Assembly: GCA_019426215.1 (NCBI GenBank)
Contig: WHWC01000148.1
Location: 1 to 64,000, forward strand
Source: Buddleja alternifolia
Lineage: Eukaryota; Streptophyta; Magnoliopsida; Lamiales; Scrophulariaceae
Direction: 5' to 3'
DNA: 64,000 bases
Below, in pieces: positions 3,953 through 61,395 of this stretch. The first letter of the stretch is position 1. The number at the start of each line of letters is the position of its first letter. A program made the translations under genes and the position numbers. The notes under the pieces were generated by a model that worked only from the letters and a program-made list of their open reading frames with translations, ran no database searches and had not been told where the DNA came from.

Positions 3953-5616
3953 TGACACGCTAAAAGCTAACGTGCTATGATAGCAAGTGCACTAGACGTG
4001 TGTAGTAATAAGTGGACAAAAAGTCCGGGTTGTCGAACCACAAGGACTTGAATTCTAGTTAATGATTTTCGATAAAAGATAAGACAATTAAAGTAAAGTG
4101 CAAGAAAAAGATTAAACAAACGAAGAACCAAAGAGAAACGTACTATAGATTTAATCTCACGTATGATAAAATGACTAAGGCACATGCTACAACCGAATCT
4201 ACTCGTCAATATATATGAGCTACTCTTCGAATTATTAGACTCCTATTGCTTTGGTGGAAACTCCTAAATTAACTATTACCCGATGTCTCGGCACATAATA
4301 ATCCTATGATTAATTGACGGTTCTCTAAATATGTCTATCCGAGAATCTAATCAAAAATCACGCATTAACGTTCTAGAGCTTCCCCGAACGAATCCGGCTA
4401 ACAACACCCGGGAATCTTTACCTATTTCTAGGGCAATCCCTCATTTGTTTCGGATGATGTGTTAATTCTCTTGCACCCTAATCTATTTTCTCTCGAACAA
4501 CTAGATTAGGCAAGATAGCAAGCATATGGTGATCAAACACATGATTGGAATAAAAGCATAGAATTAACACACAAAGCAATAGGAGAATTAATACAAAGAG
4601 CAACTTCACATATATTGATTCATAAATTTGGCCTTCACATGGCCTTAGTTCTACAATATTAGCCTCTCATCAAAGCCTTAAGAAAATCTAATACAAACAT
4701 ATACATACTCATGGAAATAAACATGTAAATGCAAATAATTAAAACTCCCTCAATTGATTGATGATGGATCTTTGCTCTTGATCTTCAATCCTTAGCTCCT
4801 CTCTCTTTGTTCCCCTCCAAAAGTGATGAAGAAATGGTGATGAATGATGATGAGTGAAAAGTGATGGCCAAAATGCCTCTCTCTCTCTCCCTCCAAGATG
4901 TCTCGGTCAATTGTGCTCCAAAATCCTTAAGAAGACCACCACCAATCAGCTCCTCATGTGTGTCCCCCCCTAGTGTGTCCTCCACTACTCTTAAAGTGAG
5001 TAGTATAAAATTCCCTAAAGTAGATCTAGTAAGAAACATACTTATGACATCCCTCTCATACATGTGATGACCTCTTGGCTTTAAATGTTCCATTCCCCCA
5101 TCAAATGATGATCTTTTGGCTGAAAGGAATCAAATCTCGGATGTGGCCACGCCTAGGCGCGGGATTATGGCGCTCGGGCGCCGTCAACAGAATGTTGGAG
5201 TATTTGCCTCTGTCTGGCGCAGTAATTGTATTTCCTTCATAACTCTCTCCACAAAACTCCGATTTGGATGATTCAAGTCCTCATTTGAAGCTAACACATA
5301 GTTCTACAACTTTGTAGAAGGAAACTTCATCCAATTCGGTCTCTAAACATACGGAAATAGCGCTCGAACGTGGAAAGTGGTGTAGATACGGCGCCCGGGC
5401 GTGGGCAAGATGGCGCCTAGGCGTAGGGGTGCATAGCAATTTGGCCTAAACTTGTTTTATACGTCATTTTTCATCCCGTTCTTTGATTGTATCCATTTAA
5501 GACCTGAAATCACTTAATGCACGAATTAAACGCACATGTGGCAAGAATCAAGCGATAAATGAACCTAAGACATAAACGCAAAGGGGCTTAAAAACACGTA
5601 AAAATGCCTCTTATCA
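3953..5616 (-). repeat. Element A 3' LTR
   Basis: This 1.66-kb LTR reads TGATAAG...GTGTCA on the minus strand. It is nearly identical to 15301-16973; the differences seen are scattered substitutions and short homopolymer changes. It contains two clusters of the GC-rich palindromic motif at 5150-5182 and 5390-5423. Confidence 0.93.
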
Positions 5617-7241
5617 ACACCCCCACACTTATCAATTGATCGTCCTCGAGCAATAAGAGTTTTAAGATAAGGAAACATCATCAATCAAAGAGAGAAACAA
5701 AAAGAAAACTACCTAACTCACTTTCGTGGAGTAAACGGTTGCATTTAGCGAATGCAACAAGCCTTTGAACCTTTTAGTTACCTCAAAGGACGAGTTATAG
5801 TCTCGTGAGGGTTTGCAGACGATATACCCACAAAATCGAAAGATTTTCAACCCCGATCACTCAACGTAAATTACAATGATTAATAGCACACAATGGTATG
5901 AATTCATCTGTTTAAGCTCATATTACAAATATATACACATCACACATTTGCTCATGTTACGCCTTAACATTGAAAAGATCATCCTAAGGGTGTAGTGTAA
6001 TAAATCTCAAGTATTATAGTCAAGTGGCATTCTTACCACTTTTCAAACATTAACCCCATATTTATCAACTTTTGATTATTCACATGGTACGAGAATTGAA
6101 TACAACTTCATAGCCACTTAAAAATTCATCACTTCATTCCACTTTCGGATTTATCTTATGCACTTTCAACTCGAAACATTAGAGGCTAGACCATGTGCAA
6201 TGTTTGATCCTCTTAGGCTTTCTATGACACCCGTGTAACGAGCTTTAGGCCAATAACTCCTAAACCAGATGGCTTTAGGGTATCAAATGTGGAGACATTC
6301 CTAAGGGCTTAATCGCTCGAGTGTCAAAGGCCACAAAATCAAACTAGGTCCTTATTCACTTAACACTTGCATTGGCTTGAGCTTAGCTCAAATTAGCAAA
6401 ATAGTACAGTATTCTAGGCATGGTGCTCTTCGCCCCCAGTATCTATTAAGCCTGACTTTTTCAGTCATACCAATGTTCAACCTCTTTTTATTATTATTAA
6501 GCACACGAAGTTAACGTTCTCAACTCATAACACATGTGAAAATTCTAAGTTGATATTTCCGGGATCAAGCCTTTAAGTGTTTCAAAATGATTGCCCACTC
6601 AACTCCTCTACCTTCGATTTAGGTGCATATGTGAATCATCTTAAGGTTAATCTAGTCTAGTTAGGATCCCATAAGCAAGAACGATGTGTATAGCCATTAA
6701 AAACCAAATTGATAGAGAAAACATACCATGTATTCAAATTAACCATACTCAATGCCTCAAGTGAAGGGTTGAAATTCTATCCAAAAAAAAAAAATTAAAA
6801 TTGCACACATTTCACATGTAGAGGTACAGCACCCCCCAAACTTGGACCGAAATATGTAAAACATGAATCAACATGACTATAATGGATCTAGTATACCCCC
6901 CACACTTATCATGAACATTGTCCCCAATGTTTGAAAAAGAGAAGGGCAAAGTACACGTCACCATAGGGAAGCTGAAAAGCAAACCCGAGTCCACTTAAGG
7001 CAATCAAGTCCACGGATGGCAATCACTGTGTCGATCACTACATAGGTAAACAAATGCTAGCCATACAGAGCATCAAACATTGGATAGAATAGAATAAAAC
7101 AAAACGAGACAAACAAAAATGAGAAACATGCATGGAAAGAAAACATCAAGCATCCAAACATAAAACATAAAATATCCAACATCCCAACAAAAGATATCCA
7201 AAAACAAAAAGAAACATGCATGGAAATAAAATAAGATAAGC
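5617..7241 (-). other. 3' noncoding region of element A with G-rich tracts
   Basis: No coding frame of note. On the minus strand a short hairpin ACATTG-GGGA-CAATGT at about 6930-6915 is followed 13 bases later by GGGGGG (6901-6896), and a second G6 tract lies at 6837-6832. The tract next to the 3' LTR (5625-5617, GTGTGGGGGTG) is the probable polypurine primer. The hairpin plus G tract also occurs in element B. Confidence 0.6.
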
Positions 7242-8545
7242 CTAATCGGTGCCAAAACGGTCAATGTAATCCTCATCCTCTCCGCCGAGATCATCCAAAT
7301 CAATCAACGGGCTACCCTCATCATTATGAGCCTCATCATCACCTCCTTGAGGAACGAGAGCACCTGACTCGTGCATATCTGCGGGCTGCTGAGGCGGGGG
7401 GTGCGGGTAAGGTGGAGGAGCAGAATAATCAAACGGCCCCCAACCGACAAACGCATCATGCTCTACAAAAAGCTGACGGAAATAAGCACAAGTGTCGGAC
7501 ATGACCACCCTCATCTCATCTCGCAACTCATCCCTCAATTCATCCTTTAATTGTCTAATGGCGGCGGCATCCATAGGTGGAAACTGTGGGGAGCTAGTAG
7601 ACCGGGATGAAGACGGGCGAGGCCTCTTGGAAGTAGCTGGTGGTGGAGGAGCCTGGGAGTCGTCATCTACCACGGTGAGATAAGAACCAGGAAGCTCAGT
7701 ACGCTCCAAAGGAAATGTGGGAACCTTAGCCGCCTTGCATAAAGCTGTGATCAGTGACGGGAGAATGATGGGAATCTTCCGAGTGGGACCTTCTCCCTTT
7801 TGCTTAGCCAATTCTTTGTTAATCAACGGCCCTAACTCATTCTTCAACTTCCTAAAGTGGTCCGTCAAAGACTTGTGGATTACCCGGGCAAAGTCCACAG
7901 CTTTCTTGGACATAATAGCGTAGATGAGGGTGGCCCGTTCCTTGTTTGCCTCTGATCGATTGGTACTCGGTATTAAATTGAATCGGATGAAGTCGAGCCA
8001 GAAAGCAGCCTCGGGTAATAGAGCCCTACGGGGGACATGAGCTTCTCCGGGTACCCATTCCCACCCTTCTCGGCCAATAACCCGCAAAATATCCGACAGG
8101 CTAACTCGGAGGCGCCCTGCATTGTAAAGAGTGGTGAACTCGCATGTCTGAGGGGTCGGGGTGCCTATGCTCTCCCTAATCTGTCTCAACTCATAATTGA
8201 CATGTTTGCCCCGGACCAAAAGGGTAGTCCCCAGCCATCCTCGTGTCTCAATCTCATCATAAACCCCGGAGCTGAAGAATTCCAGGACCCAAGGAAGATG
8301 AATGGCCTCGGGCTTTTGACAGAAAAACTGTAAGCGATGAAACTGTATCAATTCGTGCACAGAGGGCTGTCCCCGGGTGGTTAAATAGTGCTCCTTAATA
8401 AGGGTGCGGGGGTGCTCAAACTCTGACACATAATTTGGACTTGGGGGTTTTCAAAACGGGTATTATCGGGAGTCTCGGGCTCATTAGAGGAACCCTCACC
8501 CACTTTTTTCTTACCCTTGGACGGTCTGTTGGTAGTTCTCGTCAT
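7242..8545 (-). CDS. Third ORF of element A (env-like position, one frameshift)
   Basis: A protein of about 430 residues between integrase and the 3' LTR, the place where Athila elements carry an env-like or extra ORF. The likely start is ATG 8545 (MTRTTNRPSKGKKKVGEG). A one-base change in the G run at 8443-8447 shifts the frame, after which a long open frame runs to 7242. That main part resembles, from memory, the putative plant transposon protein domain found in such ORFs (HLPWVLEFFSSGVYDE, RRALLPEAAFWLDFIRFNLI). The C-terminal third is Pro/Ser-rich, then a short charged helix (LKDELRDELRDEMRVV), then an acidic tail (DLDDLGGEDEDYIDRFG). I see no signal peptide or membrane segment, so a true envelope function is not supported. 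Confidence 0.75.
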
Positions 8546-9159
8546 TTGCAACAACAATGATCAACTTCTCAACTACTCAAATCAACCCAAATGCAACCAA
8601 CCAAATACAACAATCGTCAACGCCCAACAACACACCAAAATCAGAGAGCAACCCACAATCTAGCAACAATCCACGGATTTACCGATTCCTCAATTCTTTA
8701 AGCAATAATCCACAATTTAATCAACAAAATAGCATCCAATTTCAACACAACAACCCACAAATTGATAACAATAGATTATCCAATTCAACAACAACAACCC
8801 TCAATTTTTTGATTACGATCCACAAATTCAATAGAATCCTAAAAAAAAAATTCAATCCACAATCGGACAAGCCCCAAATAATCCTCAAAATATAATGTAA
8901 GGCACCTACTCGTCGTCTATGAATCGGAAATGGAAGAAGGGTAAAGCCAAAACTCACTTTTTCCCCAAAATTTTCGCACCGAGTTGGATGTGAAGGAGGG
9001 GTCACTGTGCAGCGAGTGATGTTGATGGAAAGTGGCGGTGAAACACGGTGGAGAATGGCCGGAAATGGTGAGAGTGTCGCCGGAAATCGCTTGGGAGAGG
9101 AGTTGTGAAGAGTTTGTGAAGAATTTTGACCGTTTGACCCACAAATTTGTTTAATTCAG
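8546..9159 (-). other. Noncoding spacer upstream of ORF3, element A
   Basis: Low-complexity sequence rich in CAA/AAC on the plus strand (8557-8890), followed by mixed sequence. I see no convincing gene. It is the leader of the third ORF if that ORF is expressed from a spliced or internal transcript. Confidence 0.5.
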
Positions 9160-9430
9160 AAACGGGCGCCTAGGCGCGCGTGTTTGGGCGCCTAGGCGCG
9201 CGACACAGCGTACCTGGAATTTTTTACTTGTAATGCCCGCGCCTAGGCGGGCGTTGTTTCGGCGCTTGGGCGCCCCTTTCAGAATCGGGCGCCTAGGCGC
9301 CTGTTTTCTCGGCGCTTGGGCGCCCCTTTCAGAATCGGGCGCCTAGGCGCCTGTTTTCTCGGCGCTTGGGCGCCCCTTTCAGAATCGGGCGCCTAGGCGC
9401 CTGTTTTCTCGGCGCTTGGGCGCCCCTTTC
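9160..9430. repeat. GC-rich minisatellite with palindromic units, element A
   Basis: A 50-bp unit beginning GGCGCTTGGGCGCCCCTTTC repeats about 3.4 times from 9261 to 9430 (starts at 9261, 9311, 9361, 9411). Each full unit contains GGCGCCTAGGCGCC or a one-base variant. Upstream, 9160-9260 has two more copies in a less regular setting. It lies between pol and ORF3. Confidence 0.93.
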
Positions 9431-9635: not shown

Positions 9636-12600
9636 TCACGAAGGGTCCGCGAGGATGAAGGACTCTTTGTCTCTTGGTCCATCCATCCCTAAGTAAGGTT
9701 TTAGACGTTGAGCGTTGACCAAGAAAGTATGTCCTTTATCTGTTGTAAGCTCAACGGCGCCGGATGGATAGACCTGGGAAATCAAAAATGGGCCCGACCA
9801 TCGAGACTTAAGCTTCCCGGGGAAGAGTCGGAGTCGAGAGTTGTATAGCAACACCCGCTCTCCCTTGTGGAATTCCCGGGGGAGAATATGTTTGTCATGC
9901 CACATTTTGGTCCGCTCCTTATAGAGTTTTGCGTTCTCATAGGCAAGATGACGCCATTCTTCGAGCTCGTTGAGTTGTAGCAAACGTTGTGTACCTACAC
10001 TTTGAGAGTCAAAATTTAGAAACTTAATGGCCCAATAAGCACGATGCTCGAGTTCAACGGGCAAGTGACATGTTTTGCCAAAAACAAGACGATACGGGGA
10101 CATGCCAATTGGGGTTTTATAGGCGGTCCGATAAGCCCAAAGAGCATCATCCAATTTAAGGGACCAATCCTTTCTTGATGCGTTGACAGTTTTTTCTAAA
10201 ATACGCTTAATCTCCCTATTCGAGACCTCCACTTGGCCACTAGTTTGTGGGTGGTATGGGGTCGAAATTTTATGCTTCACCCCGTACTTGGTCAATAAAA
10301 GTTCAAACTGCCTGTTGCAGAAGTGGGTGCCCCCGTCACTAATGATGGCTCGGGGAGTTCCAAATCGAGTAAAAATATGCTTCTTCAGAAAACGAGTGAC
10401 AACCCGAGCATCATTAGTAGGCAAGGCCACGGCTTCCACCCATTTGGAGACATAGTCTACCGCAACAAGGATATATTTATTTGAACAAGAACTGGGGAAA
10501 GGGCCCATGAAATCCACACCCCATACATCAAACAACTCACACTCTAACATGCTATTTAAGGGCGTTTCATGATGTTTAGAGATGTTCCCCATTCGTTGAC
10601 AGCGATCACAAGATTTGACATAATGATGTGCATCTTTAACAAGAGTAGGCCAGAAGAAACCTGATTGGAGGATCTTAGCTACCGTTTTGGAAGGCCCAAA
10701 ATGGCCACCTACCGCCATATCATGACAATGAGATAGGATAGCATGCACGTCCGTTTCGGGTATGCAACGTCGAATTAAACCATCTGCACAAACTTTGAAT
10801 AAAAAGGGTTCGTCCCAAAGATATTGCTTTACATCAGATAGAAATTTCTTCTTTTGATGAAAAGTGATATCCGGGGGAAGACGGCCCGTAACAATGTAAT
10901 TGGCAAAGTTAGCATACCAAGGTGAAATTTTTTCAGAAATAGCAAGGAGGTGTTCATCTGGGAATTCCTCACGAATTGGTGTCTCATCTAACGGATCATT
11001 CACTAGCTCTAATCGTGAGAGGTGGTCGGCTACTACATTTTCGGTGCCTTTCTTGTCTTTTATCTCTAAATCAAATTCTTGGAGTAACAAAATCCACCTA
11101 AGAAGTCTTGGTTTAGCATCTTTCTTGGCAAGCAAATATTTTAAAGCCGAATGATCGGTGTAAACTATCACTTTGTTTAGCACGAGGTAAGAGTGGAATT
11201 TATCGAATGCAAAGACTATGGCGAGTAATTCTTTTTCCGTGGTGGCATAATTCAATTGTGCATCGTTAAGAGTTTTACTAGCATAGTAAATGGTTCGAAA
11301 TACCTTTTCCTTCCTTTGGCCAAGGACCGCTCCAACCGCGGTGTCACTCGCATCACACATCAATTCGAATGGTAAGCTCCAATCGGGGGATGACATGATA
11401 GGGGCGGAAACTAAGCGTTCCTTCAAATCAAGAAAGGCCTGCATACAAGAAGAATTGAAATCAAAAGGTGCATCTTTAACAAGCAAATTAGACAACGGTT
11501 TCGCAATTTTAGAGAAATTCAAGATGAATCGCCTATAGAAACCAGCATGCCCGAGGAAACTCCTAACAGCTTTTACCGATGTGGGCGGGGGAAGTTTTTC
11601 AATGACCTCAATCTTGGCTTGGTCCACTTCGATCCCTTTTTGAGAGATCTTGTGGCCAAGTACAATCCCCTCCCGGACCATTAAATGGCATTTTTCCCAA
11701 TTCAAAACAAGGTTGGTTTCTTCACAACGTTTAAGCACAACATTTAGATGAGCAAGACAGATATCAAAAGTTGTTCCGAAAACAGAAAAGTCATCCATAA
11801 AAATTTCAAGGAAATCTTCAACCATATCATGAAAAATAGCCATCATGCATCTTTGAAAAGTGGCCGGGGCATTACACAAGCCAAATGGCATCCTTCTATA
11901 AGCAAATGTGCCATAAGGACAAGTGAAAGTGGTTTTCTCTTGGTCCTCAGGATCTATGGCAATTTGATTATAGCCGGAGTAACCATCTAGAAAACAATAG
12001 AAATCATGCCCGGCTAATCGTTCAAGCATTTGGTCAATAAAGGGGAGGGGGAAATGATCCTTACGTGTGGCATCATTCAACTTACGGTAATCTATACATA
12101 CACGCCACCCACTAATTATACGAGTTGGGATAAGCTCATTATTCGCATTCTCAATTACCGTTATCCCCCCTTTCTTAGGCACCACTTGGGTAGGGCTCAC
12201 CCACGCACTATCAGAAATAGGATAGATTATACCTGAGTCGAGCAGTTTAATCACTTCCTTCTTTACTACCTCTTGGATTTGTGGGTTTGATCTCCTTTGG
12301 GGTTGGCGTGTAGGCTTGGTGGAGTCCTCCATAAGTATTTTGTGCATACATATCGCTGGACTAATGCCTTTGATGTCCGCAAGTTTCCACCCAAAAGCCC
12401 GTTTGTGAGATCTCAACACCGTCATTAATTGCTCTTCTTGTGATCCTGAAAGAGATGAGGAAATGATCAATGGGAGTGTTTCGTCGTCGTTCAAGTACAC
12501 ATATTTAAGGTGGGAGGGGAGGGGTTTGAGTTCGAGAGAGGGGGGTTCTTCAATAGATGGGCGAGGTGATCCTGACAATGATCTATCAACTTTGATGAAT

Positions 12601-13550
12601 CCTCCCGAATGAGAGGAAGATTTGTACTCCAAGCTTAGAACCTTTTCCACTAGATCATCTTTCTCCGAGTCCACTTGCATGGATTTCATAAGATTCTGTT
12701 CGAGAGAATTTTCAATTGTATTGTCCTGTAAATACTCAACAATCAAATGGTCAAATGTATCAATTCGATAACACGAGTCATGATCAATAGGATGTTTAAG
12801 GACTTTGTAAACATCAAAGGTAACTTTGTCATCGCCCACATTCAAGGTAAGCTTACCATTAGCAATGTCAATTACCGCCTTACCCGTGGCTAGGAATGGT
12901 CTCCCTAGGATTAATGGTACCTCCACATCTTCTTCCATGTCGAGTACTACGAAATCAACGGGAAAATAAAACTTGTCGACTTGGACAATAACGTCTTCGA
13001 TTATCCCCTTGGGCCTCTTGATCGATCGGTCGGCTAGTTGAAGGCTCATTGAGGTCGGCTTGGGATTTCCAAGGCCTAGCTTTTTAAACAGTGAGTATGG
13101 AAGAAGATTGATGCTGGCCCCCGAGTCACATAACACCTTCTTGAATGATAGGGATCCAATTGTGCATGGGATTGTGAGACTCCCGGGATCTTGGAGCTTA
13201 GTTGGCAATTTATTGAGTAATACGGCGGAGCATTCTTCCGTGAGGCACACCGTCTCATTCTCTTCCCACTTCTGCTTGTTGGAGAGTATGTCCTTGAAGA
13301 ACTTCACATAATTCGGCATTTGGAGAATGGCGTCAATAAACGGAATATTAATTCTCACTTCCCGAAGGATTGCCAAAATTCGAAGAAAGCTCGGATCCAT
13401 CTCCTTTTTCTTCTTTTTGTGAGCATTTGGGAAGGGGAGACGAACTTCGATAGGGGGAGAAAGCGTTGGGTTAGACGGATGAAAACCCACAGAAACAGTA
13501 GGCGGCGCCTGGGCGCGTATATCGGCGCCTAGGCGCCGATCTGTTGGCGC
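9636..13550 (-). CDS. pol: pol of element A: PR-RT-RNaseH-integrase
   Basis: This encodes the replication and integration enzymes. The frame is open for more than 1,280 codons and is in phase with gag across one TAG; the first internal ATG for separate initiation would be at about 13400. Numbered from 13490, the aspartic protease motif DSGAS is at residues 122-126. RT follows at about 420-600 with FMDD at 564-567 in place of the more usual YxDD. RNase H carries D713, E753, D779 and D822. Integrase has an HHCC finger ([14 protein letters not shown] at 961-964) and a DDE triad at D993, D1052 and E1088. The C-terminal part reads [15 protein letters not shown], typical of Athila. No internal stop or frameshift was seen, so the enzyme could be functional if expressed. 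Confidence 0.94.
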
Positions 13551-13770
13551 CTAGGCGCCGATCTCTGGGCGCTCGGGCGCGGGATGCAGAACATATGCAT
13601 CTGGCAGGTTTGTGGGTGGCGCCTGGGCGCGTATATTGGCGCCTAGGCGCGTATCTGTAGGCGCTTGGGCGTGCAGGTCGGGGCGCTCGGGCGCGGGAAA
13701 CAGAGAATTTTGTCCAGAACAGGGTAGATCAGGCGCCTGGGCGTGCATGTCGGGGCGCTCGGGCGCGGAT
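13502..13770. repeat. Cluster of GC-rich palindromes at the gag-pol junction, element A
   Basis: At least ten copies or variants of a palindromic unit lie here, with exact GGCGCCTAGGCGCC at 13524-13537 and 13546-13559. Variants are GCGCCTGGGCGC and GCGCTCGGGCGC. In the gag frame they encode APERP and AQAP units; the last gag copy carries the TAG that ends gag. The same unit recurs in the LTRs and in 9160-9430. Confidence 0.9.
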
Positions 13771-15136
13771 GTACTGGCAGTGTCATTCTCCAATTGTTTG
13801 CCACTTCTCAAGGCTATGGCATTGCATTGGGCCTTCGGGTTCTTTTCCGTGTCGCTTGGGAGAGTCCCCGGGGCTCTACCGTTAACCGCATTAGAAAGTT
13901 GCCCTACTTGTGTTCGTAAATCCTTCATCTCCATACACATATCCTTTATCATACTCCGAAGTTCGTTGAAAGATGTATCGGACTTTTTCATGTGAGCATC
14001 TAGTTTCTCATCGATTGTGGGAGGTCGCATTTGCACTTGACCTTGACCTTGTCCATTGAAATTGCCTTGCCTCGGGGTGGGTTATTGAAGGGTGGTCGTG
14101 GAGCTTGATAGATCCCCGGTTGATAGATCCCCGGTTGTGCGTTCTGTGCGGGGTTGGGCCTTTTTGGAAAATTCTCGGGTATATGAAAGTTCACCCGAGG
14201 TTTATTTTGATTCCCCACATAATTAACATTTCCAACCTCCGGTTCCAAGACTACTACTTCCTCAATACAAGCAACCTTTTTAGAGGATGAGGCCTCTTCA
14301 TCGTCGGGGTAAAGCTCGTCTTCTCGGGCCAACTGTTCGACTTTGTCCCATACACTTTGACAGTCTAACCCAAGGAGATCTCCTCCCGCACCCGCGTTGA
14401 GTCTATGCCGAATACGTGACCTAACCCCATCATAGAAATGGAGTACTTGTTCATTCAACCCAAAATTATGATCGGGACATTTACGGAGCATGCCCTTATA
14501 TCTAGCCCAAGCCTCGGCTAAAGATTCATTGCTCCTTTGCCTAAACCCTTTTATATTACTCCGTAGCTCATTGATTTTTGAGGGTGGAAAGAATTTATTT
14601 AAAAAGGCATCGACCAACTCACTCCATGTTGTAATAGATTGTGGAGGTAAGGATTTGTACCATGTTGTCGCCCTATCCTTCAATGAGAAATGGAAGACTC
14701 TTAGACGAATCGCATCAAGATCACGTGGGTGATATTGAATGGTCACAAGAGCCTCATCTATGGTTTCCAAATGAGCGTGTGGTGATTCGTGCTGTTCTCC
14801 ATAGAAAGGATCTCCTTGCACCATATTAAAAATGTGAGCCGGAATGTGGTAGTTTGGTGTGAAGAAATTAGGTACGACTACGGGCCCCGGAATGGCATGG
14901 ACCCTAGGTGGTAAGCTACCCCGAACCGACGGGAGTTGTGGAGGAGGTACCGCTTGCATGGCTTGTAGAACACCTTGTAACCACTCCCTAGTTTCCGGTG
15001 AGTTCATGTCCGGCAAATTTCCATTTGGGTTTTGGTTGAGATTATTGGCCATTTCTCTTGCTCGCCTACTAGTCCTAAGAACTCGTTCAATTTCGGGCTC
15101 CAACTCGTATAGAGGCTTGTTTGAGGAGCGGGTCAT
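13551..15136 (-). CDS. gag: gag of element A (one frameshift)
   Basis: This encodes the capsid/nucleocapsid polyprotein of an Athila-like element. I chose the ATG at 15136 (MTRSSNKPLYELEPEIERVL), since it matches the start of the gag in element C. The retrotransposon gag domain covers roughly residues 95-260 and contains AIRLRVFHFSLKDRATTWYK and FLNKFFPPSKINELR. The frame is broken near 14074-14077, where a run of four C on the coding strand appears to lack one base; coding resumes in another frame from about 14075 to 13551. That second part has an IDEKLDAHMKKSDTSFNELR coiled segment, then a Pro-rich tail with APERPD-HAQAP units encoded by the palindromic motif. No CCHC zinc knuckle is visible. 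It stops at an amber codon and is in frame with pol. Confidence 0.88.
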
Positions 15137-15276
15137 GCACCTCAAGAACCTAACAATTAAATACAAGAACAAAATTAGACTAATCACGAAAAAAAAAGAA
15201 AATCAAGAAATAAACGAAAACTAAGAATTATAAAAAATGTAAACGAAAATAAAAAAAAAAAACTAAAATAAACAAG

Positions 15277-15300: not shown

Positions 15301-16973
15301 TGACACGCTAAAAGATAACGTGCTATAATAGCAAGTGCACTAGACGTGTGTAGTAATAAGTGGACAAAAAGTCCGGGTTGTCGAATCACAAGGACTTGAA
15401 TTCTAGTTAATGATTTTCGATAAAAGATAAGACAATTAAAGTAAAGTGCAAGAAAAAGATTAAACAAACGAAGAACCAAAGAGAAACGTACTATAGATTT
15501 AATCTCACGTATGATAAAATGACTAAGGCACATGCTACAACCGAATCTACTCGTCAATATATATGAGCTACTCTTCGAATTATTAGACTCCTATTGCTTT
15601 GGTGGAAACTCCTAAATTAACTATTACCCGATGTCTCGGCACATAATAATCCTATGATTAATTGACGGTTCTCTAAATATGTCTATCCGAGAATCTAATC
15701 AAAAATCACGCATTAACGTTCTAGAGCTTCCCCGAATGAATCCGGCTAACAACACCCGGGAATCTTTACCTATTTCTAGGGCAATCCCTCATTTATTTCG
15801 GATGATGTGTTAATTCTCTTGCACCCTAATCTATTTTCTCTCGAACAACTAGATTAGGCAAGATAGCAAGCATATGGTGATCAAACACATGATTGGAATA
15901 AAAGCATAGAATTAACACACAAAGCAATAGGAGAATTAATACAAAGAGCAACTTCACATATATTGATTCATAAATTTGGCCTTCACATGGCCTTAGTTCT
16001 ACAATATTAGCCTCTCATCAAAGCCTTAAGAAAATCTAATACAAACATATACATACTCATGGAAATAAACATGTAAATGCAAATAATTAAAACTCTATCA
16101 ATTGATTGATGATGGATCTTTGCTCTCTTGATCTTCAATCCTTAGCTCCTCTCTCTTTGTTCCCCTCCAAAAGTGATGAAGAAATGGTGATGAATGATGA
16201 TGAGTGAAAAGTGATGGCCAAAATGCCTCTCTCTCTCTCTCTCCTCCAAGATGTCTCGGTCAATTGTGCTCCAAAATCCTTAAGAAGACCACCACCAATC
16301 AGCTCCTCATGTGTGCCCCCCCCCCCTAGTGTGTCCTCCACTACTCTTAAAGTGAGTAGTATAAAATTCCCTAAAGTAGATCTATTAAGAAACATACTTA
16401 TGACATCCCTCTCATACATGTGATGACCTCTTGGCTTTAAATGTTCCATTCCCCCATCAAATGATGATCTTTTGGCTGAAGGAATCAAATCTCGGATGTG
16501 GCCACGCCTAGGCGCGGGAATTATGGCGCTCAGGCGCCGTCAGCAGAATGTTGGGAGTATTTGCCTCTGTCTGGCGCAGTAATTGTATTTCCTTCATAAC
16601 TCTCTCCACAAAACTCCGATTTGGATGATTCAAGTCCTCATTTGAAGCTAACACATAGTTCTACAACTTTGTAGAAGGAAACTTCATCCAATTCGGTCTC
16701 TAAATATACGGAAATAGCGCTCGAACGTGGAAAGTGGTGTAGATACGGCGCCCGGGCGTGGGCAAGATGGCGCCTAGGCGTAGGGGTGCATAGCAAGTTG
16801 GCCTAAACTTGTTTTATACGTCATTTTTCATCCCGTTCTTTGATTGTATCCATTTAAGACCTGAAATCACTTAATGCACGAATTAAACGCACATGTGGCA
16901 AGAATCAAGCGATAAATGAACCTAAGACATACACGCAAAGGGGCTTAAAAACACGTAAAAATGCCTCTTATCA
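15301..16973 (-). repeat. Element A 5' LTR
   Basis: This 1.67-kb LTR drives leftward transcription. It carries the palindromic motif at 16505-16538 and 16747-16780. TATA-like candidates on the minus strand lie downstream of these, TTTAAA near 16437-16442 and TTTATACTA near 16358-16366; neither is certain. The LTR ends at 15301, six bases before the PBS. Confidence 0.92.
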
Positions 16974-17207
16974 ACACCTCCACACTTATCAATTGATCGT
17001 CCTCGAGCAATAAGAGTTTTAAGATAAGGAAACATCATCAATCAAAGAGAGAAACAAAAAGAAAACTACCTAACTCACTTTCGTGGAGTAAACGGTTGCA
17101 TTTAGCGAATGCAACAAGCCTTTGAACCTTTTAGTTACCTCAAAGGACGAGTTATAGTCTCGTGAGGGTTTGCAGACGATATACCCACGTAAAAATGCCT
17201 CTTATCA
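16974..17207 (-). repeat. Extra copy of element A 3' internal end plus LTR tip
   Basis: Between the full 5' LTR and the target duplication lie about 215 bases that duplicate the internal sequence next to the 3' LTR (5617-5831, including the G-rich tract), then about 20 bases of LTR terminus. The junction near 17187-17190 shows the microhomology CAC shared by the LTR and the internal region. It lies inside the ATAAT duplication, so it belongs to the inserted DNA or arose within it. Confidence 0.85.
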
Positions 17208-18086: not shown

Positions 18087-18477
18087 TGATAAGTTCACAT
18101 TTTACAGCATTTTATGCCCCATTTTAATACGATTTGATCGTTACTTTGATCACTTTTTATCCCTCATAATGCTTTGATTGGTATAGATTTTTTTTTGTAG
18201 AATACAAGTTAATTTACGCATGAAAGATGAGAAAGGAGATTCAAATTGAGCTTGAAATTGAAGAAAGAAACAAAATGAGATAGTTGACCAAAGATTTTAC
18301 ATAATGCTCATATAAAAACGCGATTTTCGTCCCTTTTCCAGCCGACTCAGACTAAGGTTTCTTCTTCACTATTGTAGACCGTTGTCTTAGCTTCACGTAG
18401 CAATTTGAATCACCTCAATCCGACATCGGTAGAGAAAGTTATGCATATTTTACCAAAACTGTACGGAGCAGCAGGGG

Positions 18478-18564
18478 AACGCCGCGGCGTTCATCACCAA
18501 CGCCGCGGCGTTCGGAGGCAGAATGTTGATCACCGCGGCGTTCAACCATCAACGCCACGGCGTT
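18478..18564. repeat. Palindrome cluster in element B 5' LTR
   Basis: AACGCCGCGGCGTT is exact at 18478-18491 and 18499-18512. Truncated or one-base variants lie at 18529-18542 and 18551-18564. The cluster ends about 20 bases upstream of the TATA box. The same four units are in the 3' LTR at 22884-22970. Confidence 0.92.
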
Positions 18565-18582
18565 AAAAGCGGCGAACTTGGC

Positions 18583-18592
18583 CTATAAATAG
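18583..18592 (+). promoter_or_regulatory. TATA box of element B 5' LTR
   Basis: CTATAAATAG, just after the palindrome cluster; a strong match to the plant TATA consensus. The matching segment is deleted from the 3' LTR. Confidence 0.75.
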
Positions 18593-19485
18593 ACCATCAG
18601 GTCATTTGGACGAAAAGATGCCCAAAACACACCCTAGACTCCTTACATATCAGCCACCACCCAAGGAAGCTTGAAGGGGATCATCATCCTCATCCTCATC
18701 ATCCTAATCATCATCAATTTCATCATCAAAGCTTGGATTCACACTTTGTAATAGGGAGTAATTCAACTCTTTCTCTTTGATTAGTTATCAACTATGTCTT
18801 ATAGAATTGTTGAATCATTTGTTATTGTAAGTATGAGCTAAGCATTTTTTTGATTGGGTTATGTGAATGCTTTGTGAAGTTTTGTGTTTAATGAATCATT
18901 AATTTCCGGATTTATTACATTCTTGTTACATGTTTGATTTTGTGCTTAATCAATCATCATAACGTAACAATTGACTAGAGATAGAATCGATTGCGTTGTG
19001 TGGCTTTTTGTGATAAGATGACCCGATTGAATGTAGGATCTTCGTAAACAAGGAATTCCTTTGATGCATGTTAGTTAATTCAATCTTCACTATAGAGATA
19101 TAGGAAGTTGTTAACTAGTATAGGCTTGTTATTTCAAGAGATTGAATAATAAATACATTAGGGGGTTTCGCCATAACAAGAACGTTCTAAGAATCCGAAT
19201 AATTGAGAGTTCATGAACATAGAATAGAACATAGTAGGATCATAACCCAATCACCTCTTTCCATTCGATTTATTATCTTGTTTATCACATAGTTGTCTTT
19301 GATTATTTTCATAGTATAACCAACCATCATCTTTTAATTTGATTTAGCTTAGAGTTAGATAATATAGCAATTACGAGCATTGAATCCAATTGTCCCTGTG
19401 GAGACGATACACCCCGGGCAAAATAGTCCACTTTATTAGTTTGCACGACCTAGTATACTTGCTAGGATTTCGCGTGTCAAGTTTT

Positions 19486-19503
19486 TGGCGCCGTTGCCGG
19501 GGA
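19486..19503 (+). other. Primer binding site, tRNA-Asp type, element B
   Basis: TGGCGCCGTTGCCGGGGA, six bases (AGTTTT) after the LTR end; identical in sequence and spacing to element A. Confidence 0.92.
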
Positions 19504-19658
19504 CAATTGCGTTATTTGATATTGTAATTCACTTATCTTTTCTAAGACTAAGTTGCTGTTTTTCAAGTTGCAGTTTTTGTTTTTTTATTAAGTTGCTGTT
19601 ATTTTTTTTTTAGTTGTTGTTTTGTTATGTTTATTTTTTATTTTTTATTCTTGAATAG

Positions 19659-20784: not shown

Positions 20785-20796
20785 GCAGTGCAAAGG

Positions 20797-46601: not shown

Positions 46602-48126
46602 TGAGAGGTTATGAATTCACGTGTTTTATAGCCTCATATTCATGTTATTTACATTGGTTTATGCATGATTTATACCACATATGTGTTTAATTTGTGTGCT
46701 TATTGAGTAAAGGTAGACAATCATTGTAATCGAGAAAAACTTGACGGAAATGCAGAATTTCAGAATATTTAGTGTCCGAATTTGAATACATATCCTTCTA
46801 CAAAGTTGTAGATCTCTATCGTTTCTTCATGCGACAACTTGAATCACCGAAATCAAAGTTCTGTAGAAGAAGTTATGAAGGAAAGAAGATTGCTGCTCAG
46901 ACAGAAGAAGTAATAGAACAGCACGCTCGACCGTGAAGAAGATGACGTCCGTACGTTGACTTGGTCAACGTTTGAACAGGAGATACCTGGCGTTCGGATG
47001 TGCTGAAGGCGAGAAAAGTCAGATTTTAAGTGCAAATTATGCACGAACGTTAGGAAGCTCAACGTTCGAACGTCGGCGTCGGGAGTAGCCGTTTTGGAAA
47101 TTTCCAATTCTAATTCAAAGAGGATTCTTCCACCCATTGGTTATAAATACTAGATCAGTTCTCTAGGGCTATACACACGAAATAACATGAAATTCGCATA
47201 GAATAGAGCCCTATTAGGGTTTAGATTTAGTTTTTTCATATTCATGTAGATCTACACAAACCCTTGAAGGTGAAGAAATCAAAAGCATGGAAGGGATGAA
47301 GATCGAAGTTCAACCATCAAATTTAATAGAGAGTTTTCTTAGATTAGATTTATATTTGTCTATGAATTAGATTCTTTCTTTGTTTTTCTATCTTTTATAT
47401 TTGTTGATGAATTATATTCTTCGAACTAAGGCCATGTTTAGGCTAATTTATGAGATTTGAGTTATAAATTGCGTTTTTCATATTAATTTTTTTGTTGCTT
47501 TATATTTTAATCTTGTTCTTAATGCTTTGTATGATTAGCTACCATATATAAGATTTTATGCTTAAATTATCTATCCGGGAGAAAGTAATTTAAGGTGCAA
47601 AAAGGATTAATAACATCTTCTAAGTTCATTGTACAACGCTGGGTGTTGTTTACTGGGTTTATTTTGAGGGATAAATCTGAATAAATTTGAGAAAAATTCT
47701 AGTGTCTAATGCATGGAGTAGAGATTGCTACACCCAATCTAGTATAGGTTATCATGAGAGAGGGATTTGCGTGATAATAATCTTAAAAAAATTTCCACCT
47801 TAGCAACATTAGTCAAATAATATGAAAACGTGATTTTAACAAGAATTGATTAATTTTTGCCAACACATGTGTCTTAGTTGCTCTCTTCCATTTCTATCTT
47901 GATTTTGACATCTTGTTTCTTGTATCTTGCTTCCATAATATTTTAGTTAATTCTTGTTTTAGTTATTTTTATTACTTTTAAAATCCTTAAGTCTTTATTT
48001 TCTTTAAGTTCTTACTTGCTTTAATTTCTCGTAAAAATCTTCGACATCTTGGACTTAATTGTCCACTTTATTACTACACACGAGCAGCCTTCTTGCTGTA
48101 AAAACACGTAGAGTTCTACCATGTCA
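46602..48126 (+). mobile_element. Solo LTR of Athila-like family C
   Basis: TGAGAGG...CATGTCA flanked on both sides by GTAAT (46597-46601 and 48127-48131), so it is a complete LTR left by recombination. It resembles the 5' LTR of element C (57353-58646) over its length. It has AACGTTCGAACGT at 47061-47073, variants near 46966, and a TATA box TATAAATA at 47142-47149. Confidence 0.88.
47142..47149 (+). promoter_or_regulatory. TATA box in family C solo LTR
   Basis: TATAAATA, about 70 bases after the nearest palindromic unit. Confidence 0.65.
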
Positions 48127-49158: not shown

Positions 49159-50033
49159 TGTTGGCGTCTAGTTAAACATGCGCAGCGGAAGAACGTGGTC
49201 CTGAATGCCACTTTATACATCGTTTGTGATGTTTTGATATTTTATTTCAAATTCTTTTGTTAATCTAATTAATGAAAACTAATTAAAATCATACCTTTGA
49301 TATATGAACGAAAAACCCTTGTTCTTGTGAACGACAAATCCTCCAAGATCCCTCATCTCTAGATTGACACGCGAAACAGTCGGAAATCCTCTTCTCCTCC
49401 TCCTTAATGGTGGCTAGGTGGTGGTGGAGAGAATTTTCTTTCTCTTTGTATGTTATGTGAGGCAGAAAAGTTTCTCGGAGTATTTCATGTATTCTTTTAC
49501 CGCTAAAGTTAAGAAGAATAATTCCCATCCTCTCTAGGTATTGAAGTTGGAGGATATTTATAATCATCTACCAGACCATAGAAGTCTGTGCTCAAAGATC
49601 TGTCCCAGTGGGTCAAGTCTAACCTAGCTAACTTGGTCCGATATCAATAAAAAACTCACTGCCCGACATTAATGTTCGAACATGCCCTTGGCTAACATTC
49701 GAACGTGACTCTAAGCAACGATCAAACGTGGAGCCCTTTGTTATTAAATGACAAAGCTCCATACATGAAGTGATTTCCTTGTTACTTCTTACAGCGTGAC
49801 TCTCTAGGTTCGTCTCGATTGAAAATGGGAGAATACCAAAATATGTGGGTGACACCTAGCCAGCCCTGTGGCCCCACATCATCGCCCAATCAAGTACAAA
49901 ATGAATAAATCATATGAACCTCTCGGTTATACTCTCCATACACGTATAGACCCTTCACTGAAGTATCCCTATCGAGTGATAGGCATGGAAGCTGTCAAAC
50001 TAACATTACTCGATATTATGCTATCAATCATAG
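49159..50033 (-). repeat. Truncated copia-type LTR, minus orientation
   Basis: Starts with TGTTGGCG, the mirror of an LTR 3' end, followed by GCGCAGCGGAAG as in the ends of D. It runs through LTR-like sequence (CTCTAGGTTCGTCTCG, GACACCTAGCCAG). It breaks off next to another LTR end at 50034. It carries palindrome-like sequence TAATGTTCGAACATG and AACATTCGAACGTG at 49668-49709, otherwise typical of Athila-like family C. Confidence 0.6.
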
Positions 50034-57352: not shown

Positions 57353-58646
57353 TGATAGAGTCGAGAATTACGTGTTTTATAGTCCTTTAGTTGTATGATT
57401 TTCATAGAATTAAATATGATTTTATACCATATATGCGTGAAATATGTCTATTTTGAGTATCCAGGTATAAATCATTGCATTGGAGACAACAAGGATGAAA
57501 ACAGCAGAAAGATGGAATTTCAGAACAGAAAGTTGAAGAGTTGAATGTTCGAACGTGGAACATCTGGACGTTCGAAAGTTGAGAGAGTTTATGCCCGAAG
57601 GTTGGAAGCTGTTACACATGGACGCCAGGGATATTAACGTTCGAATGTTGAAGTTGGCAGAACAGTTTTGGAAATTTTCAAATTCTACACTTACACGGAC
57701 TCTTCTCAAACCACGCCTACAAATATAAAGTGATGCAGTAGAGTTAGAGAGCAGCGTTTTTTAGAGTCATCTCCATAAATATTCCGTCTTTTTCATAGAG
57801 AGTTAGACTAGGGTTTTATCCTTTGTAATTCTCCATAGAAGTAAAGAAGCTTGAAGGAAGAAGAATATCTACACAGTTATAGGGAGTTTTTGTTCTTTGT
57901 TTCTTACTTTTATGAATATTTTAGTTGTTTTTCACATCATTATGAGTAGCTAAATTTGTAGACTAAGGTTATTCTTAGGCCGAATTATGATTTTTGAGTT
58001 ATAAAACTATTTCTCATATGAATGATTTATATTGCTTTGTGTTATAATCTTGTTCTCAATGCTTAGTGTGTCTTGCCAACATATTTAAGATCTAATGCTT
58101 AATTTATCTTTTCGGGAGAAAGTAGATTTAAGGTGCAAGAGGGATTCATAACATCTTATAAGTTAGTTGATGTTACGGATAGCTACATACTGCGGATGCT
58201 TTTAGCTGAGTTTATTTGGAGGGATAAATATGAATAAATTTGGCAGAAATTCTAGTGTTTTATGCATGCAGTAGAGATTGCTACAACCAATCTAGTGTAG
58301 GTTATCATGAGCGAGGGATCCGCGTGATAATAATATTAAGGAGTTTTCCACCTTATCAATATTTATTTGAAATACGAGAATACTGATATAATGAGAATTG
58401 ATTAGTTTGTGTTGACACATGTGTCTTAGTTATTTTTATTCATTGGTTTTCATATACTTTTAATTATTGTTTTTAATAGTTTATGATTTATTTTTCTTTA
58501 AGTTTACACTTGCTTGAGTTAATTTACTATTTTCGCTATAAGACAAATCTCTGTGGGTTCGACATCCCGGACTTAATTGTCCACTCTATTACTACACACG
58601 ATCAGTCCTTTTGCTGTTAAATACACGATTGGGTTTTCGTGCATCA
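57353..58646 (+). repeat. Element C 5' LTR
   Basis: TGATAGAG...GTGCATCA, 1.29 kb, related to the solo LTR 46602-48126. Palindromic units at 57544-57556 (AATGTTCGAACGT), 57568-57580 (GACGTTCGAAAGT) and 57634-57649 (TTAACGTTCGAATGTT). A TATA-like AATATAAAG is at 57722-57730. Confidence 0.85.
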
Positions 58647-58652
58647 AGTTTT

Positions 58653-58771: not shown

Positions 58772-61204
58772 ATGACCTGATCTCGTGACGGAGATCTTGA
58801 GGAATTTGATCCAGAAATCGAACGAACGATCCGAGTAAATCAACGAAGACGAGCCATGGCAGCCAAATTTCCAGACATGAATCTTTTGTAAAATCGTGAA
58901 TGGCTCCAAAATATTTTACAAGCAATGCAGCCAGCAGCACCGGCTCAGTTATCATCTGTTCGTGGCAGTCAACCACCTAGGGCATACACTTTACCTGGTC
59001 CTGTTGTCATACCACCTTTTCACTCACCAAAATTTTACATTCCAGCACATCTTTTTGTTATGGCACAAAATGACCCTTTTTATGGAGAAAACAATGAGTC
59101 ACCACATGATCACTTGGAAAACTTTAAAAATGTTTTGTTAACCATGCAATTTAATCCCAGAGACATAGATGCTATTCGACTTAGGTTGTTTCACTTCACA
59201 CTCAAAGATAAAGCCACTTCTTGGTATAAGTCCTTACCCTCACAGTCAATCACCACTTGGGGAGAGCTCGTTGAAGAATTTTTAAATAAATTTTTCCCAC
59301 CTTCAAGAATCAATGAGCTTTGTAGTAACATTAAAGGGTTTAGGCAAAGAAAGACTGAGTCGTTAGCAAATGGGTGGGATAGGTGTAAAGGAATGATTAG
59401 GAAGTGTCCGGACCATAATTTTACTCAAGATGAATTGGTACAACACTTTTACAATGGAGTAAGGTCTGGGATTAGACACAGACTCAATGATGGAGCTGGG
59501 GGCGACTTGTTGGGTCTTGATAATAAATATGTCTGGGAGAAAATAGAAAAATTAGCTTGGGAGGATGAGTTATACCCCGAGAAGGAAGATGAGATCACAC
59601 TTACACCAAAGAGGGTGGCAGCAGTTAAAGAGGTTGGAGAATGAGTTGAGCCAGAGACCACTATAGAGGTCAACTATGTGAATCAACAAAAACCTCAAGT
59701 TATTTTAGGAAGAGCTGAGAATTTCCCTCGAAAGCCAAATAATCCACCATATGGAAATCCGGGAGCATACCAAGCACCTCGACCACCATTTCAGTCCAAC
59801 AATAACTAACAACAAGTGCAATTTCAGCAGCAAGGTCAAGGAAGACCTATAAACATTGATGATAGGCTCGATGCACACATTCGCAAGTTGGATGAATCTT
59901 TTAAAGAACTCCACTTGATGCTAAAAGATGTCGTTACGGGAATGAAGGAGATGCAACATCACATAGGGCAACTTTCGAATAGCCTTTCAGGGAGAAACAC
60001 GGGTACATTACTGAGTGATACTGAGAAAAACCCGAAGGAGCAGTGCTTCGCAGTAACACTCAGAAGTGGGAAGGAAGTGAAGAACACATATAGGACGCCC
60101 GAACGTGAATTTTGTAACGTTTGAATGTCCTATGATATTCCAGAGGCAGTGGATGTCCCGCTTCAGACATCCGAACGTGAAGGAGTTAACGTTCGAACGT
60201 TGAATCCTCAACGTCCGAACGTGGACCCCTCTAACGTTCGAACGTCCAAGGTAGTGAATCAGGTTGTAAGTCTACTGTTACTAACCCCCCTCCCCCTGTT
60301 GAAGTATGTTTTCCTTTCTCCTTAGCTTAGAAGATTAAAAATAATGAACATGATAAGAGTTTCCTTCACATTCTTGAGAGTTTGAGAAGTGCGTATTAAC
60401 ATTCCTGTTGTAGATGCTATTTTGCAGATGCTAAACTTCGCGAAAATTTTCAAGGTAATACTATCAGACAAACAGAAGTGGAAAGAAGGGGGTATTGTCT
60501 GCCTAACAGAAGCATGTTCGGCAGTTATGATGAAAAATATGCCAAAAAAATATAAGGATCCGGGTAATCTATCCATTCCATGCACTATTGGGGATATGAA
60601 GTTCGACAGAGTTCTTTATGATTCCGGGGCCGGGATCAATTTGATGCCTTATGCACTCTTTAAGAAGTTGGGCCTTGGAGAGAAAAAAACCACTACTATG
60701 CGGTTGCAGCTCGCGGATAAATCTGTCAAGAATCCTATTGGGGTGATCGAAGATGTCGTAGTTAAAGTCGACAAGTTCTACTTTCCAGTCGACTTTGTGC
60801 TTCTTGAAATGGAGAAAGATTCTGATGTCCCACTAATCCTACAAAGACCATTCCTAGCCACAGGTAAACCCACGCTAGACTTGGTGCATGGTAAGCTTAC
60901 ATTGAATATAGGGGATAAGAAGGTAACTCTGAATGCTTATAGAAGTTTTAAGCATGAATTTCCTGAGAATACTTGTTCTATACTAGATGCTTTTGATCCT
61001 TTTGAGGATGAAGTTTTGCAGGAACATTCGTCTGATGACCTGAGCAGTCAAAGAATTGAAGAAGATACGAGTGCTAACAAGGTTGCAAACCTCGATTCGA
61101 TGGACCAAGTGGCTGTCACTACATCCACGAAATTGCAACATGGTGAACCAAATGATGGGAGATTGGACAAATATTTTAGTCCACTCCATGATCCAGTGAC
61201 TTAG
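58772..61204 (+). pseudogene. gag-protease of element C, nonsense-interrupted
   Basis: One reading frame from ATG 58772 to the TAG at 61202-61204, with several in-frame stops (about 58778, 58889, 59642, 59807, 60122, 60323, 60383) but no frameshift that I can see. gag parallels element A (DPEIERTI, SSVRGSQPPRAYTLPGPVV, AIRLRLFHFTLKDKATSWYK). The tail (IDDRLDAHIRKLDESFKELH, GQLSNSLSGRNTGTLLSDTE) leads into a segment rich in NVRT-type units encoded by the palindromes. The protease (LYDSGAGINLMPYALFKKLG, with DSGAG where A has DSGAS) is uninterrupted from about 60389. Several stops are at codons where C to T change fits the A sequence. Confidence 0.85.
60098..60246 (+). repeat. Palindrome cluster at the gag-protease junction, element C
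   Basis: Exact AACGTTCGAACGTT at 60188-60201, AACGTTCGAACGT at 60233-60245, and variants CCGAACGTGAA (about 60100), AACGTTTGAATG (60117-60128), CCGAACGTGAA (about 60171) and AACGTCCGAACGTGG (60210-60224). In frame the exact units read NVRT. The location matches the palindrome cluster of element A. Confidence 0.9.
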
Positions 61205-61218
61205 GCCGACTTTGCAAA

Positions 61219-61262
61219 GTCAAGCTAATGACTTTAAAGAAAGGCTTCTCGGGAGGCAACCC
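61219..61262 (+). promoter_or_regulatory. Conserved post-coding motif, element C
   Basis: GTCAAGCTAATGACTTTAAA, then GAAAGGCTTCTCGGGAGGCA ACCC, then a T-rich tract. It begins 14 bases after the coding stop, as in element A. Confidence 0.75.
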
Positions 61263-61395
61263 GAGCTGTTTTTTATTATTTTTTTGTCTTATTTTAGCTT
61301 TGTTTTGTTTTGCTTTGTTTATTTTTGATTTTTGTGCAGAAAAGAGGTAGAATATGGAAGAAATCTTCAGACAGCACTCCCGAACGTGAGGAGCT

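Follow-up and report, generated by a model that had tools for sequence, protein, structure and literature searches.

What is the meaning of three families of LTR retrotransposon that each carry clusters of their own 14-bp palindrome in matching places? The DNA that raises this question (the window: 64,000 nt of Buddleja alternifolia, contig WHWC01000148.1, positions 1-64,000, forward strand) contains elements A, B, and C. Element A, on the minus strand, has a 5′ LTR at 15301..17188 (delimited by self-BLAST, pair alignment, and the primer-binding site at 15277-15295), a 98.6% similar 3′ LTR at about 3953-5831, and between them gag (14000..15202; PF03732), pol (9636..13550; protease, RT, RNase H, and integrase by Pfam), and ORF3 (7242..8450; PF20167, Transposase_32, with a KRPRP basic run). 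This order, with PR-RT-RH-IN between gag and an additional 3′ ORF, is the Athila layout within Ty3/gypsy. A TTGGCGCCGTTGCCGGGGA-type primer-binding site after the LTR, which we take to be a mark of Athila, is exact in A and in B (19485-19503) and has 1 mismatch in C (58652-58670); domain order, primer-binding site type, and pol and ORF3 homology all point to the Athila lineage. Residues 1-260 of A pol gave 2534 matches; of the 120 listed, those that carry a name are from plants. Element B (18087..23665, plus strand) is of Athila type and apparently non-autonomous, neither pol nor ORF3 being detected in it; gag and protease were the only domains found in C.

All three palindromes of the original prediction lie where it placed them, and clusters are present at the A and C gag-pol junctions, between pol and ORF3 in A, and in the A, B, C, and solo LTRs. 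Element A (motif GGCGCCTAGGCGCC, all on the minus strand) holds 29 units of score at least 12 in four clusters, and its arrays follow one another at about 3.0-4.3 kb intervals, judging from coordinates, in the order LTR, gag-pol, pol-ORF3, LTR. Specifically, i) in the 5′ LTR, AGCGCTCGAACGTG, GGCGCCCGGGCGTG, and GGCGCCTAGGCGTA lie upstream (16716..16782) and CACGCCTAGGCGCG and GGCGCTCAGGCGCC downstream (16503..16538) of a motif-free conserved block (16566..16715) common to A and the solo LTR, and the same two clusters recur in the 3′ LTR (5148..5425); ii) the gag-pol junction cluster (13504..13767) consists of 10 units in 114-bp modules; and iii) the cluster between pol and ORF3 (9165..9424) has 9 units of score 13-14 and, at 9238, one imperfect unit, with part of the cluster arranged in 50-bp modules. 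Element B carries four units per LTR on the plus strand (AACGCCGCGGCGTT twice, ATCACCGCGGCGTT, and AACGCCACGGCGTT), at 18478..18564 in the 5′ LTR and, identical over 87 bp, at 22884..22970 in the 3′ LTR. The C clusters, also on the plus strand, lie in the 5′ LTR (57544..57649) and at the gag-pol junction (60094..60246), with a related cluster in the solo LTR (46944..47074) and a further decayed one (49671..49730) of three units 23 bp apart. The motif type is the same in the LTR and internal clusters of one family. Because the gag-pol units occupy all three reading frames in both A and C, they are not a peptide repeat; one A gag-pol unit contains a stop, and readthrough there was weighed as an idea but not retained.

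The three motifs had been thought to share no obvious sequence, but comparison reveals that all fit RRCGYY-N2-RRCGYY with a core of CGYNNNNRCG, so that each unit pairs two CpG hexamers as a dyad, with its CpGs 8 bp apart (CpG-6 bp-CpG). Such palindromic units occur far beyond chance and genome-wide. In the window there are 23 perfect 14-bp palindromes (mean 6.2, maximum 13 in 40 block-wise dinucleotide shuffles), and 20 exact matches to RRCGYY-N2-RRCGYY (RRCGYYNNRRCGYY; mean 0.175, maximum 1 in the same shuffles), every one inside the named clusters; in the 853.6-Mb genome the latter pattern has 25,718 matches versus 2,796 for its reversed control, whereas the version with a 3-bp spacer has 4,554 versus 3,544. 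Exact A sites number 3,142, and a further type (D; TCACGC-N4-GCGTGA), also covered by the core, is found at 99 places versus 1 for its control. Perfection of the palindrome, in contrast, is not general: mean matched pairs, worked out by hand from counts, are ~6.6 of 7 in B, which has the cleanest dyads, 5.8 in the A pol-ORF3 cluster, 5.4 in C (with a single perfect C palindrome in the window), 5.0 in the A LTR, and 4.9 at A gag-pol, where ~4.25 would be expected from purine/pyrimidine class alone. Neighboring units are 20-23 bp apart in 89 of 163 pairs with spacings up to 60 bp.

Copies of the A, B, and C LTRs were retrieved through motif-free flanks, not through the motif, and units were called at no more than 3 mismatches (4 gave a false unit near the TATA box in B); because those examined were the best-scoring 40 of 766-2,148 candidates, they are young and related. 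Placement and family specificity hold throughout (A 20/20, B 20/20, C 30/30), and no copy examined lacked units or carried them at random positions. The A LTR has 2-3 units upstream and 1-2 units downstream of the conserved block in all 20 fetched copies; B has 2-5 units per copy, with precisely 19 bp between the end of the last unit and TATAAATA in 19 of 20, the twentieth lacking TATAAATA; and C, window copy included, has at least one unit at no more than 3 mismatches in 30/30 and at least two in 28/30. Both internal A clusters are kept in 7/7 copies with homologous internal DNA, with 5-12 units each between pol and ORF3 (13 of the 20 offsets lack A internal DNA, and one of these, L255, has 4 units of its own), and the C gag-pol cluster is kept in 4/4 copies with flank homology. 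Other elements' gag-pol linkers (59 cut from the 120 listed of 2534 pol matches, 57 with letters) are charged and, by eye, have no such unit repeats; the linker arrays therefore seem to be a peculiarity of these families.

The LTR slot is fixed, after a conserved block and, in B, C, and one D locus, ahead of a TATA box. A position just upstream of the TATA box, as originally predicted, describes B well, but TATAAA lies 74 bp downstream of the last unit in C and 67 bp in the solo LTR; A does have LTR units in the equivalent part, but as two clusters flanking the 150-bp block, with no clear TATA box seen by eye just downstream. A motif-blind census of 60 LTRs, anchored in the conserved block (16566..16715) and typed by visual inspection and by BLAST against a single reference locus for each type, found CpG-dyad arrays in 36, a CpG-free array (type E) in 17, no array (type F) in 6, and 1 unclassified; the CpG dyad is thus dispensable for the lineage and not essential to the slot.

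We propose, with a probability of roughly 0.55, that these arrays act in Athila-lineage elements as cis-regulatory modules with fast turnover, serving a dimeric, CpG-reading, and probably host transcription factor. The LTR array would recruit this factor and so drive LTR transcription; the common spacing of 20-23 bp, roughly two turns of the helix, would place the bound dimers on the same side of the DNA; arrays in the gag-pol linker and the pol-ORF3 spacer would provide additional places to bind, as has been suggested for Sirevirus env; and families would shift their motif by duplication, loss, and homogenization of whole units within the slot. The sequence, place, spacing, and whole-unit turnover of the arrays are established, as is the conservation of C units against variable spacers; from these we infer protein binding, the host origin of the protein, and an effect on transcription. 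The dyad and its common 20-23 bp phasing fit a dimer-binding site, and the shared architecture, the specificity for an N2 spacer, and the motif-blind recovery of arrays in the same slot all favor a cis-regulatory role. We count against it the array-less and CpG-free LTRs, the lack of a clear TATA box after the array in A, and three observations described below, namely the CpG decay in C, the greater variability of the C cluster as a whole than of its flanks, and the A LTR pair; the gag-pol coding linker, too, is no obvious promoter position. By homogenizing the units, tandem duplication makes them look more conserved than they are, and it produces fixed spacings as well.

The arrangement, of which the original prediction knew no description, has a close precedent in another superfamily, the only one to stand out among the titles and abstracts listed: the RM boxes of Sireviruses (Bousios et al. 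2010, PMC2829016), described there as Sirevirus-specific among Ty1/copia elements, are family-specific CpG dyad motifs that occur 8 or more times in an element, clustered in the LTR ahead of its TATA box and again upstream of env, and that of Usier is also 14 bp long (GTCGGACGTCCGAC). Multiple identical polypurine tracts are another Sirevirus trait. Like RM boxes, the Athila dyads are family-specific and many (29 units in A, 4 per LTR in B), and in A have an extra cluster before an env-like gene (7/7 other copies). The position of the LTR cluster relative to the TATA box is less uniform, at 19 bp in B, 74 bp in C, and 67 bp in the solo LTR, and is not clear in A. Unlike Sireviruses, A has Ty3/gypsy domain order; the core is CGYNNNNRCG rather than the CGG-CCG of Sireviruses other than Tnd-1; and A and C have a gag-pol cluster, of which the Sirevirus motif table has none. 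The similar layout in Athila, with a simple grammar of CpG-6 bp-CpG across families, often with about 22-bp phasing, suggests a common need for a CpG-reading dimer in two superfamilies. Retand (PMC11963269) resembles A as a Ty3/gypsy element in which arrays specific to the family separate pol from the 3′ LTR and which has an extra, possibly DNA-binding ORF, but belongs to a different lineage, and the available text does not describe its arrays as CpG dyads. Insertion of LTR elements at palindromes has been reported (PMC6911290); the 4 papers that contain one of five motif strings do not deal with retrotransposons.

The reader might instead be encoded by the element, ORF3 or another protein binding its own family's units to counter silencing while motif and protein co-evolve, which we consider unlikely. 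The model is VANC of VANDAL DNA transposons (PMC5735166), an element-encoded binder of short, family-specific, mainly noncoding motifs. Those targets share with ours dense family-specific arrays and rapid tandem gain and loss (2-5 units in B, 5-12 in A pol-ORF3), and whole-unit turnover is described for them; they differ in not being dyads and in belonging to DNA transposons, and their binding by the element's own protein removes DNA methylation. A's own motif recurs every 3.0-4.3 kb or so along the element; A ORF3 has its KRPRP run, and 98 of its 103 scored genome matches, counting the window's own, have no internal stop; and nuclear localization is predicted for a sunflower Athila ORF partly similar to PF20167 (PMC11728184). 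On the other hand, a Pfam search of A ORF3 found PF20167 only and no known DNA-binding domain, a single-sequence fold was useless (pLDDT 37.7), and one architecture for three motif types speaks for one class of reader; that the cleanest dyads belong to B, in which ORF3 was not detected, makes a binder restricted to its own element slightly less likely. Protein searches with ORF3 and with a linker piece gave 5634 and 2 candidates, respectively, none scored. The boldest version, a long shot, is that the ORF3 of each Athila family is a nuclear reader of its own CpG-dyad motif every 3-4 kb, keeping the element open to transcription and changing together with the motif, while non-autonomous relatives, B among them, depend on it; if true, ORF3 would be the LTR-retrotransposon counterpart of VANC anti-silencing. 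Given 3,142 exact A sites and an ORF3 stop-free in nearly all matches, the choice between host and element as reader is directly testable.

Rather improbable is a function in RNA, in which adjacent self-complementary units would form transcript hairpins as a source of siRNA or for packaging or translation control. Seven of 10 cluster segments do fold better than shuffles (z below -3, down to -8.3), and overlap between Sirevirus palindrome clusters and small RNAs has been reported (Bousios 2016, cited in PMC10760457); but a clear folding excess is missing from three segments, the two from the A 5′ LTR (z 0.2 and 0.6) and one from A gag-pol (z -1.2), repeats of any palindrome would fold in this way as a by-product, and hairpins require neither helical phasing nor CpG retention. 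Rfam at gathering thresholds had no match across the window.

The preferred cis-regulatory reading must also be weighed against functionless tandem duplication of a CpG-rich patch, the alternative named in the original prediction. Duplication of whole units is clearly at work, array size changing in whole units (2-5 in B, 5-12 in A pol-ORF3, and the 114-bp and 50-bp modules of A), and 6 of 60 LTRs have no array; in the A LTR pair, clusters are not depleted of changes (1/102 versus 14/1,776 elsewhere). As the whole explanation, however, neutral duplication is quite improbable: units stay in the same slot in several families, LTR and internal clusters share a motif type, and the spacer is specific (N2 versus N3). 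Moreover, non-CpG divergence among C copies is 0.068 in units versus 0.179 in inter-unit spacers (Mann-Whitney p 2e-4, with unit borders set after looking at the data); the C cluster as a whole, which counts against the cis-regulatory reading, is more variable than its flanks (0.135 versus 0.063, part of the flank being chosen by match). A B relative, 76-84% alike in most pieces alignable elsewhere, retains six units in the same slot, three of them perfect AACGCCGCGGCGTT and the other three imperfect, arranged as three pairs 22 bp apart. In favor of the cis-regulatory reading, the B LTR pair has 0 substitutions in 87 cluster bases versus 15 in 402 outside (chance 0.037).

Least probable is a host silencing target, with CpG dyads 8 bp apart as favored substrates or reader sites of the methylation machinery: CpG density is high (15/111 columns in the C cluster versus 9/497 in flanks) and the CpG-CpG distance fixed, but selection on the elements would remove such sites, yet units are kept and re-amplified, and CpG decay among C copies is equal inside and outside the cluster (0.197 versus 0.195), giving no sign of a protected CpG island. 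Viral contigs, in which a search with pol found no relative, yielded 67 candidate loci through the A palindrome and 62 through the LTR anchor.

Judged from their sequences, elements A, B, and C are all Athila-type, because the same primer-binding site comes after each LTR (exact in A and B, with one mismatch in C). Element A (minus strand) encodes gag (PF03732), protease-RT-RNase H-integrase, and an extra 3′ reading frame, ORF3, with PF20167; element C (plus strand) yielded gag and protease; and in element B (plus strand) we looked for pol and ORF3 and detected neither. The primer-binding sites at 15277-15295 and 19485-19503 start with TTGGCGCC, the hexamer of the A half-site, possibly by chance.

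The three palindromes occur in the window at all the positions claimed for them. The original prediction saw no obvious shared sequence among them; the families instead have a common grammar of two CpG hexamers, GGCGCC-TA-GGCGCC in A, AACGCC-GC-GGCGTT in B, and AACGTT-CG-AACGTT in C, with CGYNNNNRCG constant in these units and in those of a further LTR type, D. This follows from the distribution of the dyad pattern RRCGYYNNRRCGYY, all 20 of whose matches in the 64 kb lie inside the named clusters (mean 0.175 and maximum 1 in 40 block shuffles), and from the 55 windows found when one class mismatch is allowed, 44 in the ten cluster intervals (about 2 kb in total) and 11 outside. Perfect palindromy, also claimed, is pronounced in B, the units of the A LTR and of the A gag-pol cluster showing it to a lesser degree, and the A LTR also holds mixed forms such as AGCGCTCGAACGTG. 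A decayed C-type cluster at 49671-49730, beyond those previously listed, has three units at 23 bp spacing.

Other copies of A, B, and C, picked through motif-free flanks in the same genome, which its element types mark as a plant's (853.6 Mb in 429 contigs, the source of all our genome counts and copies), keep their units at the expected places; the fetched copies are the best-scoring candidates, and therefore young. For C (flank 57300-57540, best 40 of 766 candidates scored), one or more C units with at most 3 mismatches occur within the next 75-129 bp at all 30 loci, the window's copy included, and two or more at 28 of them. For B (flank 18087-18470, best 40 of 2,148 scored), each of the 20 copies fetched carries 2-5 units, and 19 bp separate the end of the last unit from TATAAATA in 19 of them. 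For A (block 16566-16715, best 40 of 1,644 scored), units lie on both sides of the block in 20/20 fetched. Internal clusters of A were looked up at the expected offsets from 20 LTRs: the 7 offsets that held A internal DNA all show 5-10 units at the gag-pol junction and 5-12 between pol and ORF3, and the other 13, devoid of A internal homology, have 0-1 units at the gag-pol offset. Clear flank homology was found at 4 of 20 C gag-pol offsets, all four with 3-6 units matching at 12 or more of 14 positions; one further locus, L260, has 4 units there without flank homology.

Genome-wide, RRCGYYNNRRCGYY occurs at 25,718 places (2,796 for the reversed control), the same dyad with a 3-base spacer, the single alternative counted, at 4,554 (3,544), and GGCGCCTAGGCGCC at 3,142 (0). 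Among the first 50 RRCGYYNNRRCGYY places listed, a small sample from the start of one contig, 27 differ from the A (4), B (7), or C (16) palindrome at no more than two positions and the other 23 at more, with no further large dyad class apparent. A motif-blind census used TCTACAAAGTTGTAGA, inside the conserved block of the A LTR, as anchor (2,489 places, 4 for the reversed control) and sampled 60 LTRs, the first 40 anchor places on that contig and 20 of the next 60, with types assigned by eye and blast: 28 have A-type arrays, 7 C-type (including AACGTACGGACGTT forms), 1 type D (CTCACGCACAAGCGTGAG, TTCACGCACATGCGTGAA), 17 type E, and 6 type F, with 1 unclassified. Type E (L302, L323, and 15 other loci) carries in the same LTR slot a CpG-free array of repeated AGAATGGTAGNTCACATTCT-like dyads, AGAATG-N8-CATTCT in tandem, and all 17 retain one or more A-type units upstream, mostly decayed; type F (L283, L289, L290, L311, L312, and L331) has no array in the slot, and its flanks somewhat resemble C-type LTRs. 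Type D grades into type A (TCACGCCTAGGCGTGA), and its TCACGC-N4-GCGTGA occurs at 99 genome places (1 for the control). Measured against shuffles, dyads are clearly in excess in C (z above 4 at 3/5 loci) and in D, and modestly so in E (z 1.3-4.0) and in F (z 1.4-2.4, from one non-array dyad); downstream of the block, where the A units are imperfect, just 2 of 15 A loci show an excess. The census types therefore indicate that the LTR slot is common to the families and the dyad varies by family, the CpG dyad being the commoner, though not the sole, version.

Tandem duplication had been offered as a refuting explanation, and it holds in part: whole units are gained and lost in B, and in A as 114-bp and 50-bp modules. 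Against duplication alone, C units vary less than their spacers (non-CpG differences of 0.068 versus 0.179, with unit borders set post hoc), within a cluster region whose own rate is about double that of its flanks (0.135 versus 0.063). The B LTR pair has 0 substitutions in 87 cluster bases versus 15 in 402 outside (chance 0.037); in the A pair the two rates do not differ in this way (1 of 102 versus 14 of 1,776). In a B relative whose other alignable pieces are mostly 76-84% alike, the same slot holds three perfect and three imperfect B dyads, in pairs at 22 bp spacing. Sequence comparison thus points to both selection and duplication in unit evolution. CpG decay in C copies is equal inside and outside the cluster (0.197 and 0.195), so the copies examined are not protected; dense CpG, we infer, must be kept or renewed in an active lineage.

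Among neighboring units up to 60 bp apart, 89 of 163 spacings fall at 20-23 bp, or roughly two turns of the helix, which favors a DNA-level role; additional peaks lie at 27, 31, 50, and 52, and tandem copying of one module would also produce fixed spacings. A role at the RNA level would draw on folding of the units, which is strong in 7/10 cluster segments but absent from the A LTR segments. A peptide repeat is unlikely, because the units occupy all three reading frames in the gag-pol linkers of A and C and, by eye, no comparable repeats appear in 59 other Athila-type linkers extracted by script. The A gag-pol unit at 13546-13559 introduces an in-frame stop in the window's copy.

Most likely, the arrays are putative binding arrays at which a dimeric CpG-reading protein would act on the LTR promoter, the internal clusters perhaps serving as additional binding platforms within the element. 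ORF3 may be the reader; in A it has a basic KRPRP run and is stop-free in 98/103 scored genome matches. The RM boxes of Ty1/copia Sireviruses (PMC2829016) are family-specific, CpG-rich dyads upstream of the TATA box and the env gene, a layout like that of the Athila arrays except that, by eye, no clear TATA box follows the LTR array in A; the Athila arrays differ from the boxes described there in superfamily, in core, and in having a gag-pol site, and therefore fall outside that set. The target motifs of VANC, the anti-silencing protein of VANDAL DNA transposons, resemble the Athila units in turnover and in spread along the element (PMC5735166).

Downstream of element C, a copia-type gag-integrase frame of 747 aa (61695-63938) is still open. 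Copia-type sequences at 31438-35154 and 55094-51418 are 86% alike in inverted orientation, and CpG-dense patches adjoining copia-type elements (31275-31424, 39922-40071, and 55068-55217) contain imperfect GC-rich inverted repeats but no RRCGYY dyads.
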